Part shown: in pieces, positions 34,782-37,713 of the stretch | Position numbering within the stretch: position 1 is the first letter of the stretch | Layout: each line of letters starts with the position of its first letter | Assembly (NCBI GenBank): GCA_949740445.1 | Contig: CATJIF010000016.1 | Span: forward strand, 1-64,000 | Direction: 5' to 3' | Source of the DNA: an uncultured Peptostreptococcaceae bacterium | GTDB taxonomy: Bacteria; Bacillota; Clostridia; Peptostreptococcales; Anaerovoracaceae | DNA length: 64,000 bases | Program-made: the position numbers and the translations under genes | The notes under the pieces: generated by a model | The model's database searches: none | Seen by the model: the letters and a program-made list of their open reading frames with translations, nothing else | Told to the model about the DNA's origin: nothing

Positions 34782-35600
34782 ATGAGAGAAACACCATATA
34801 AAATTTTGAGCATTGGCGCACATCCAGACGATGCAGATACCAGCGCCGGAGGGTTGTTGCTAAAGCTGCACAGGCAAGGGTGGCAGGTGCGGATGCTGTC
34901 GCTGACCGATGGCAGCGCCGGCATGTACGATGCGGCGCGCTGCGGTATGGAATTGGCAGAGATACGGCGGGCAGAGGCGCAAAAGAGCGGATGCCTGCTG
35001 GAGGGGCGCTACGATGTCTGGGACATTCCCGACGGGCATCTGACGGCCAGCCTGGAGTACAGACAGCGGCTGATCCGCTATATTCGGGAGTTTCAGCCCG
35101 ATGTAATCGTAACCAACCGGCCGGGAGATTACCATCCAGATCACAGAAACACGGCGGTTTTGGTAGCGGATGCTTCCTATCTTCTGACGATTCCCTACGT
35201 GTGCAGCGATACACCGTCCATGGATTTTGTTCCGGTGATTTTGTATTGGTCCGACGGATTCCAGCGGCCCTATCCCTGCAAACCCGATGTGATCGTGCCC
35301 TTTGACGGCCTGGAGGAAGAACGGCTTCAACTGGCCTGCTGCCACGAATCCCAGTATTTCGACTGGATGTACTGGCCGGACCGCATGGAGCACAGGCACT
35401 GGCCACGGCAGCAGCAGATACAGGAGCTGAGAGAGCGCTACCTGCGGCGGGCGAAAAAGGACAGGGCCGAGGTGGGAGAAGAGCTGCTGCGGCGGTTTGG
35501 AAGCGAAGCTGCGGTGAGGATTCAGGCGGTAGAATACTACGAAATCTGTGAATTTGGCAGCGCGCTGCCCGACGAGCTGCGGGCGGTGATGGAAGGATAA
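34782..35600 (+). CDS. PIG-L/LmbE-family deacetylase
   Basis: A 272-residue zinc deacetylase of the PIG-L family, whose members remove acetyl groups from N-acetylglucosamine-containing molecules. The N-terminal motif IGAHPDDADTSAGG supplies the His and Asp zinc ligands and the catalytic Asp, and YHPDHRNTA gives the second histidine cluster. ATG 34782 follows AAGGAAGGG. The last codons are part of a 36-bp sequence repeated at 37653-37688. The substrate is unknown; the location behind opp and ROK suggests an imported GlcNAc compound. Confidence 0.88.
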   Translation: MRETPYKILSIGAHPDDADTSAGGLLLKLHRQGWQVRMLSLTDGSAGMYDAARCGMELAEIRRAEAQKSGCLLEGRYDVWDIPDGHLTASLEYRQRLIRYIREFQPDVIVTNRPGDYHPDHRNTAVLVADASYLLTIPYVCSDTPSMDFVPVILYWSDGFQRPYPCKPDVIVPFDGLEEERLQLACCHESQYFDWMYWPDRMEHRHWPRQQQIQELRERYLRRAKKDRAEVGEELLRRFGSEAAVRIQAVEYYEICEFGSALPDELRAVMEG

Positions 35601-35613
35601 CAAAAAGGCGGCG
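35578..35613. repeat. Left copy of a perfect 36-bp direct repeat
   Basis: Identical over 36 bases to 37653-37688. This copy is in place: it covers the last codons and stop of the PIG-L gene and the start of its terminator. Confidence 0.95.
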
Positions 35614-35815: not shown

Positions 35816-35841
35816 TCAACACTTGGATACTGCCGTTCGTC
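35816..35841 (+). promoter_or_regulatory. Candidate ECF-type promoter of the sigma factor gene
   Basis: TCAAC (35816-35820), 17 bases, CGTC (35838-35841). An AAC-type -35 and CGTC -10 are typical of extracytoplasmic-function sigma promoters, which are often autoregulated. The gene starts 36 bases downstream. The match is short and could be chance. Confidence 0.4.
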
Positions 35842-35876
35842 TTATAAGTAAAAGCCAGGACAAAGGAGAGCCTCGC

Positions 35877-36341
35877 ATGATAGAAGAACTTTATAACACC
35901 TGTTACGACGAATTGCTTTGCTGGTGCGTCGCTTTGACCAAACAAAAGGCACAGGCCGAAGACCTGGTACAGGAGGCTTTTCTGCGGGCGATCAGAAACA
36001 GAACGCTTTTAGAGCAGATGGCATTTCGAAAGCGGCGGGCTTGGATGTTTCGGACGGTGCGCAATCTCTATGTGGATGAGCTGCGGAAGGCGGCGGCAGC
36101 AGTCAGAAAGGAAGGACTTCTCTTCGGGCTGCCAGTCTGCAGCGGAGACTACAGCGACGGCGAATGCGCCCAGATGTTGAAAGCACTGTCAGAGGAGGAG
36201 CGAGTGCTCTTTGTAATGCGCTATCTGCAGGGATATAACTCTGTGGAAATAGGAAAGCTGTTCGGCCTGCCGCCGGCAACGGTGCGGTCGAAACTGGTTT
36301 CTGCCAGAAAGCGCCTGAGAAAGGAATGGGAGAATACGTAA
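35877..36341 (+). CDS. ECF-type RNA polymerase sigma factor
   Basis: A 154-residue sigma-70 family protein with region 2 (YNTCYDELLCWCVALTKQKA through AEDLVQEAFLRAIRN) and region 4 (LSEEERVLFVMRYLQGYNSV then EIGKLFGLPPATVRSKL). ATG 35877 follows AAAGGAG. Its stop TAA overlaps the next ATG as TAATG, so the two proteins are made together. The usual partner at this position is a membrane anti-sigma factor; here the neighbour has no membrane helix. The N-terminal region has several cysteines. Confidence 0.9.
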   Translation: MIEELYNTCYDELLCWCVALTKQKAQAEDLVQEAFLRAIRNRTLLEQMAFRKRRAWMFRTVRNLYVDELRKAAAAVRKEGLLFGLPVCSGDYSDGECAQMLKALSEEERVLFVMRYLQGYNSVEIGKLFGLPPATVRSKLVSARKRLRKEWENT

Positions 36342-37555
36342 TGGCAAAGAAAAATTTGATGGTAAACTGCAATTTGTGCGATATCAGAAAAGCGACGAAG
36401 GACCGGCTGGCACAGTATGAGCAAATACTGATTAACACAGATATTCTATTGGCGGATGCTGAAAGCCGGAGCTTGCTGGCCGAGGCTTCGGTGCAGTGCA
36501 ATATGGATATGCTCGTAGAGGTAGAGAAAGACATTTCGACGATTCAGACCAATGGAGATTACACAATCAAGGCAGGAAATCCGCCGCAAACGCCTTCCGC
36601 TCTGATCGTCAACGGAGACCTGCTGATCGAAAACGGCGCGGAGCAGCGATTAAAAGGATATAAAACAATCGCAGTCAACGGAGATGCGTTTCTGCCCGAC
36701 CGTATGATGGGCGGCGTTCCGCAGCTGCAGACCAGCGGAGAGGTGATCGCTTATCCGGAAGGCGATATCATACTTTCCCACACCACGGTTCTGGATCGCT
36801 ATTTTGCCCTGCGTGCTAAAGAAAACCAGGGGTATTATATCAACCGGTGTTTAGTGGCAGTGGATTCCAAAATCGACACGGCAATTTTGATGCAGAAGAA
36901 AGTCCGCTTTCACACGCCGCGGCTGATCGTTGCAGAACCGTTCCTTTCCGATATGCTTTCGCTGTGCTCAGAGCAGACGGAGATTACGGAGGTGCCACAG
37001 GGATGTGCCTATGTAGCAGACGATGCCGCATTGAATTTACCCCTGATAAAACGCTTTGGCCCCCGCATTTATGTGCGAGGCGATCTGGCCGTGGAAACCG
37101 ACGATGAACGCATTTTAAGCCAGATGTCTTATCTTCATGTCGAAGGGACTCTGTGCATAACAGAGCGGCAACAGGAGTGGCTGCAAAATGCAGAGATCAT
37201 TTGCGATGATATACAGCTGATTCGCGGTACGATCATGGATAAGAAAGTGAAGGTTACGGCAGATCGAAAGCTTTTGCAGCTGTCGCCGCAGGGCGTGCTG
37301 TTTCGTTACTGCGTACAGGTAAATATCGCCGCGGAGCTGTCGCCGGAAGAGATTTTAAACGGCATGGAGTTTGTACAATGTGTAAACATTCAATGTCAGG
37401 CGGAGCAAAAAGCAGCGGTCGAAGCCGTCTGCAAGCAGTGTGTCAACATCAGAGCCGCAGGCGAAGAAGAGCAAGAGGGGGGCGGAATCGTGGATTCTGT
37501 GTTTGGCATGCTGAAAGAAAGCGATGCATTTAACTGCGATCAATACGTGCTGTAG
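36341..37555 (+). CDS. Unrecognised 404-residue repeat protein coupled to the sigma factor
   Basis: I do not recognise this family. No signal peptide or membrane helix is visible. Residues 1-80 are charged with a CNLC pair (Cys10, Cys13). Two blocks look related: about 88-121 (ALIVNGDLLIENG and TIAVNGDAFLPDRM) and about 242-285 (RIYVRGDLAVETD and YLHVEGTLCITER). Short alternating V/I-G-D/T strands suggest a beta-solenoid like bactofilin or polymer-forming proteins. The C-terminus has CVNIQC and CKQCVNI, then an acidic tail. ATG 36341 overlaps the sigma stop. A role in sensing for, or as the target of, the sigma factor is inference. Confidence 0.8.
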   Translation: MAKKNLMVNCNLCDIRKATKDRLAQYEQILINTDILLADAESRSLLAEASVQCNMDMLVEVEKDISTIQTNGDYTIKAGNPPQTPSALIVNGDLLIENGAEQRLKGYKTIAVNGDAFLPDRMMGGVPQLQTSGEVIAYPEGDIILSHTTVLDRYFALRAKENQGYYINRCLVAVDSKIDTAILMQKKVRFHTPRLIVAEPFLSDMLSLCSEQTEITEVPQGCAYVADDAALNLPLIKRFGPRIYVRGDLAVETDDERILSQMSYLHVEGTLCITERQQEWLQNAEIICDDIQLIRGTIMDKKVKVTADRKLLQLSPQGVLFRYCVQVNIAAELSPEEILNGMEFVQCVNIQCQAEQKAAVEAVCKQCVNIRAAGEEEQEGGGIVDSVFGMLKESDAFNCDQYVL

Positions 37556-37652: not shown

Positions 37653-37688
37653 TGCGGGCGGTGATGGAAGGATAACAAAAAGGCGGCG
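37653..37688. repeat. Right copy of the perfect 36-bp direct repeat
   Basis: Matches 35578-35613 exactly. Here it is out of context: it is the 3' end of the PIG-L gene without the rest, joined to the LysM gene terminator. The sigma cassette lies between the two copies. Confidence 0.95.
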
Positions 37689-37713
37689 CGCTGAGACTTC
37701 AGCGCGCCGCCTT
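37676..37713 (-). terminator. Terminator of the LysM gene
   Basis: AAGGCGGCGCGCTGA and its exact complement form a 15-bp stem with a GACT loop. On the minus strand it is followed by TTTTT. The left arm overlaps the right copy of the 36-bp repeat. Confidence 0.85.

Follow-up and report, generated by a model that had tools for sequence, protein, structure and literature searches.

The locus described here lies in a stretch of 64,000 nucleotides (the window) from a draft genome assembly of 3.24 Mb in 219 contigs. It consists of a gene for a sigma factor and a gene for a soluble partner protein, preceded by a candidate promoter and bracketed by a direct repeat (Table 1). The stop codon of the sigma gene and the start codon of the partner gene have one base in common (TAATG), and homologues back the partner start at MAKKNL. 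These coordinates bear out the first-pass annotation, which had described an ECF sigma factor translationally overlapping a soluble repeat protein.

Table 1. Features of the sigma–partner locus, in window coordinates
Feature	Position	Strand	Description
36-bp direct repeat, left copy	35578..35613		Last codons of PIG-L deacetylase gene, with the beginning of its terminator
ECF-type promoter of the pair	35816..35856	+	TCAACACTT (-35 region), CGTCTTATA (-10 region), downstream conserved AAGTAAA stretch
ECF sigma factor gene	35877..36341	+	ATG 35877, TAA 36341; 154 aa; sigma regions 2 and 4
Partner gene	36341..37555	+	ATG 36341, TAG 37555; 404 aa; predicted soluble LRR-like alpha/beta solenoid, family unnamed
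36-bp direct repeat, right copy	37653..37688		Runs into terminator-like hairpin at 37680-37713

The sigma factor matches Sigma70_r2 (PF04542, 3e-11) and Sigma70_r4_2 (PF08281, 1e-11) in the Pfam scan and TIGR02937 (3.6e-21) in NCBIfam. Its 154 residues contain PF04542 and PF08281/PF04545 only, with a short linker between regions 2 and 4, and by this domain content it is an ECF sigma factor. Such factors are usually seen as paired with an anti-sigma factor in the membrane and as acting on a group of target genes. The partner is predicted to have no membrane helix, as had been noted before, and its highest 19-residue Kyte-Doolittle mean is 0.9.

The two copies of the 36-bp repeat are perfect and are the only ones in the whole genome, which suggests an insertion or duplication at this site. 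The bracketing repeat is absent at the other 24 loci examined, and a check for an empty site found the PIG-L neighbour in 0 of 60 relatives at E 1e-40.

Distribution and linkage of the two genes

A profile search retrieved 34 partner homologues beyond the window, distributed across Bacillota. With the window included and each locus counted once, this gives 35 loci. With the genome of the window counted each time, the partner is found in 12 of 297 genomes of the order, 13 of 391 genomes of the class, and 4 of 398 genomes of the phylum; a narrower query against 84,980 species genomes yielded 15 partner loci, 9 of them new. The named hosts are uncultured Clostridia-type MAGs, and isolate labels suggest digesters and animal guts. 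Searches of phages, plasmids, and viral contigs gave no match to the partner.

An ECF sigma gene directly adjoins the partner in all 35 loci, upstream in 34 and downstream in one (G606). In the 32 pairs with an upstream sigma gene that were measured, the distance between the genes ranges from -8 to about 190 nt. Most other neighbouring genes vary from lineage to lineage. The pair is therefore a conserved unit, as the constant adjacency demonstrates and as the first-pass annotation had anticipated.

Three loci deserve separate mention. The G606 locus (L099 4306-5482, reverse complement; G606:C32) is divergent, with the gene order reversed; its partner is shortened to 225 residues, and the two reading frames overlap at the partner stop and the ECF sigma start. 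The neighbourhood of L034 (contig SHOH01000005.1), which is labelled Anaerolineaceae, is nearly that of the Clostridiales locus L033; this contig is likely misbinned and no evidence of the pair in Chloroflexota. In G461, the sigma gene (L020 1026-1421) is truncated or frameshifted near the C terminus, leaving 131 residues, so that the unit may be undergoing decay there.

We also searched the same 391 class genomes independently with a profile built from 19 sigma factors (E 1e-28). This profile matched 12 genomes, all of them partner-bearing, with every match located beside the partner and scoring at least 149 bits; the thirteenth partner genome of the class, in which the sigma profile had no match, is the divergent G606. 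The co-occurrence of sigma factor and partner is highly significant (Fisher p = 6e-22). Pairwise identities (distances) of sigma factors and partners correlate with r = 0.91, a value computed from the sigma–partner pairs alone and to which shared ancestry contributes. For ECF factors paired with class I anti-sigma factors, a correlation of 0.82 with controls of 0.5-0.6 was reported, by a measure that differs from the one used here (PMC7406223).

Absence of the partner from the 60 nearest relatives searched, 4 of them in the same genus, could suggest that the sigma and partner genes adjoin in this genome by mere chance. The adjacency in 35/35 loci, the co-occurrence, and the common promoter described below refute this explanation, to which we assign a negligible probability. 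Because adjacency is constant and the two proteins co-occur, the sequence survey supports the solenoid as a dedicated partner of this sigma subfamily.

Sequence and predicted structure of the partner

Sequence searches with the window partner gave no match in Pfam, NCBIfam, or PDB, and no family was identified for 24 members compared with Pfam, NCBIfam, PHROGs, and PADLOC. Scattered weak matches of one or two members to unrelated families were taken as chance. The profile search that had been proposed as a check on the 404-residue protein places it outside any recognisable anti-sigma or enzyme family. The window partner has 14 cysteines; C13, C347, and C352 are invariant within its clade, and C352 is nearly invariant in a wider set of 11 members spanning both clades. 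Conserved residues also include the strand-end N and G, and the partners are acidic, with a mean charge of -17. The duplicated strands read from the sequence at first pass are corroborated by the family profile (29 members), which self-correlates at lag 22 (z = 3.0), and by several internal repeat pairs that exceed the maximum of column-shuffled controls.

AlphaFold models were obtained for the window partner (pLDDT 89, pTM 0.74) and for one protein from the second clade (pLDDT 90, pTM 0.67). Both consist of about 18 units of a strand and a short helix with a ∼22-residue repeat, so that the partner is modelled as a beta-alpha solenoid, vaguely LRR-like or receptor-L-domain-like. The helix placed in most repeats speaks against the helix-free beta-solenoid suggested earlier and for an alpha/beta LRR-like one. 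In several structure alignments, residues 1-8 of the window model are joined to 397-403. Closure of the solenoid into a ring by the C-terminal strand is left as a possibility, since the rows of the second model do not show this junction and the pTM values are only 0.67-0.74.

The partner could in principle be a highly diverged class I soluble anti-sigma factor, bactofilin, or BspA-type/receptor-L-domain LRR protein, but this appears improbable. LRR proteins and receptor L domains make up most of the weak structure matches (VIA Z up to 4.7, with unrelated folds at similar Z), and the partner profile touched one PDB entry for an LRR protein along 74 residues (E = 0.008). Against such an origin, Foldseek gave no match at E 0.001 in PDB for either model, nor in BFVD at the same threshold, and whole-length TM-scores are below 0.25 among the PDB matches listed. 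Moreover, the Pfam models for class I anti-sigma factors, bactofilins, LRR, and Recep_L_domain matched 0 of 24 members at E 0.1. The weak structural match neither establishes a common fold nor proves a new one. Profile matches in PDB to PPR repeats covered just 23-24 residues and were taken as compositional.

Compared with LRR proteins and receptor L domains (LRRC8, the insulin/EGF receptor L domains, BT_1240), the partner shares repeats of ∼22 residues, built of a strand followed by a helix or turn, and NG/IxGxL-like strand ends. It differs from them in having no Pfam sequence match, in a structural overlap that is partial (Z below 5), and in being a bacterial, presumably cytoplasmic protein coupled to a sigma factor. 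With bactofilins it has in common the repetitive VNGxLxI-like strands and the nature of a soluble bacterial protein, whereas the missing match to PF04519 (24 members, E 0.1), the helices in most repeats of both models, the length of ∼400 residues, and the linkage to a sigma gene set it apart; the bactofilin-like character proposed at first is not upheld. Unlike class I (ASDI/ZAS) anti-sigma factors, it shows no helical ∼100-residue domain by profile, and the models have alpha/beta repeats throughout. The zinc motif HxxxCxxC, a feature of the ZAS subset of class I only, is absent in 32 partners. Judged by domains and profiles, the partner is thus neither a class I anti-sigma factor nor a bactofilin or LRR protein.

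A soluble partner encoded beside the sigma gene is also found in ECF286/ECF292 with their Asp23-type partners. Unlike the known soluble ECF partners, the present one has neither the zinc-binding HxxxCxxC nor a Pfam match to a named family. The literature on soluble ECF partners describes other kinds (PMC8999054), and none like the solenoid was found in the papers searched. The sigma group itself may already bear an ECF classification number.

Promoter and targets of the sigma factor

In the promoter of the pair, AAC and CGT are spaced by 17 nt. The candidate noted at first pass, TCAAC-N17-CGTC at 35816-35841, is weak when taken alone but generalises to AACACTT-N13-CGTNNTA followed by a TATAAGTGAAA-like stretch. 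In an alignment of 34 loci, this motif lies upstream of 33 of the 34 sigma genes at 9 or more of 12 positions, the sole exception being L032, in which it is absent. The conservation is not a matter of chance, because a score of 11 or 12 out of 12 is reached in 29 of the 34 upstream regions, as opposed to 3 of 1,700 shuffled sequences. The gap between ACTT and CGT is exactly 13 nt in all but one of the motif-bearing loci. The -35 region switches from CAACACTT/AAACACTT to GGACACTT with the sigma/partner clade: it begins with CA or AA in one clade but with GG in the second, paralleling the split in the sigma and partner sequences. A simple scan for sigma-70-type promoter-like sites found none on the forward strand of the region.

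Since the promoter is conserved upstream of 33/34 sigma genes at near-constant spacing, the sigma–partner unit is probably transcribed by its own sigma factor. The motif agrees with the AAC/CGT rule for ECF promoters and with the frequent autoregulation of ECF genes (PMC8103513). Taken as a whole, the initial interpretation stands as regards the conserved unit, the ECF promoter, and the distance from known anti-sigma and enzyme families, and falls as regards the bactofilin likeness and the helix-free solenoid.

Scored with the family matrix, the promoter of the pair reaches 39.4 bits, and the next site in the window 7.5. In the whole genome, a pattern of 17 fixed positions with up to 3 mismatches occurs at 7 places, compared with 13 for the reversed control; fewer than 3 mismatches are seen at the pair's own site only, and the count does not exceed that of the reversed pattern. 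Of the other candidates retrieved from this genome, the best (G000:C121, 18.1 bits) reads CAACCTTTT, precedes a different ECF sigma gene, and is probably that factor's own promoter. A second exact pattern match (G000:C42) was rejected as chance: it scores 7.6 bits and lies inside a reverse-strand mutM-like gene with no gene start downstream. Because the next sites score far lower and the mismatch counts lack an excess, the sigma factor appears to have the pair as its main or sole target in this genome, an estimate by pattern matching that degenerate sites could escape. The earlier suggestion that the partner is the main product is upheld to this extent: apart from the sigma factor itself, the partner is the one constant product and, by motif, apparently the sole one here.

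Additional promoter sites occur in other lineages and score 27 to 43 bits. In G744 (L087 4056-4096; G744:C1 near 1250560), a near-identical copy of the promoter (43.3 bits) lies just downstream of the partner and precedes two genes for ABC exporters (572 and 575 residues). In G193 (L088 from 1504; G193:C152), a promoter of the same family (40.9 bits) precedes an ORF of 33 codons that has a ribosome-binding site and ends in a hairpin terminator. The same promoter type (27-28 bits) is found before related ∼100-residue proteins in G503 and G625 and before the corresponding, broken ORF in G461; these sites lie in L084 near 1772 and, both on the reverse complement, in L086 near 1572 and L085 near 1845. 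By these sequence matches, the pair seems to be the constant part, and the extra target, one in each case, lineage-specific. In L084, L085, and L086, CATTCG-like letters in the promoter recur as inverted copies, CGAATG, before the ribosome-binding site.

A proposed role for the solenoid

Like the canonical ECF sigma/anti-sigma operons SigW-RsiW and RpoE-RseA, the unit has the sigma gene first and the partner second, an AAC/CGT promoter, and predicted positive autoregulation. Unlike in these systems, the partner is predicted to be soluble, has ∼400 residues and repeats, and is without a ∼100-residue anti-sigma domain or membrane helix, and apparently no regulon exists outside the pair in this genome.

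We propose, with a probability of about one-half, a self-contained two-gene autoregulated ECF module in which the solenoid serves as a brake on the sigma factor and also as its main product. The sigma factor would guide RNA polymerase to a single conserved promoter, the one ahead of its own operon, and thereby make itself and the solenoid; the conserved promoter and the single good site in this genome support this step. The solenoid would bind the sigma factor in the cytoplasm and keep it from RNA polymerase, acting in an anti-sigma-like manner although it lacks the domain typical of anti-sigma factors. Some ligand or state in the cytoplasm, held by the solenoid, might then release the sigma factor and fire the loop, and newly made solenoid would carry out the response and shut the loop again. 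In some lineages, the promoter may have been copied to one further target (ABC exporters, the ∼100-residue protein, or the 33-codon ORF), providing an extra output. A brake is proposed because a self-activating sigma factor needs one and nothing else nearby could serve; the output role, because nothing else seems to be made in this genome.

Two points count against restraint: the partner has neither a recognisable anti-sigma domain nor HxxxCxxC, and a sigma factor that targets its own operon alone would need no anti-sigma factor if the partner were simply its product. The partner could accordingly be output only, with the sigma factor dedicated to activating a single protein of structural or recognition function (an LRR-like solenoid inside the cell) and with sigma activity governed by some other input, for instance sigma synthesis or competition for polymerase. 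We regard this as a realistic but less likely explanation. The promoter of the pair is the single good site in this genome, which would make the partner the sole product, and the lack of an anti-sigma domain fits as well, as does the common role of LRR-like solenoids as binding surfaces. In the genomes searched, however, neither a partner without an adjacent sigma gene nor a member of the sigma subfamily without a partner was found, although a pure effector would be expected under other control at least sometimes. Moreover, a positive loop that has no brake would become locked in the on state, and the extra targets in other lineages are what one expects of a regulated switch.

Beyond restraint and output, the pair might represent a new sigma–partner class, in which a cytoplasmic LRR-like solenoid, possibly self-closed via its C-terminal strand, would be sensor, anti-sigma factor, and sole product of a sigma factor that serves its own operon only. 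We consider this full combination unlikely.

One ECF subfamily thus seems to depend on just one soluble protein, from an unnamed family, and to act on almost nothing else. Should the solenoid restrain the sigma factor, this would be a new mode of bacterial transcription control; if it is the product only, the sigma factor would be an unusually dedicated one. Consisting of two proteins and a single promoter of very high conservation, the unit is compact and portable and could possibly be useful for synthetic circuits.
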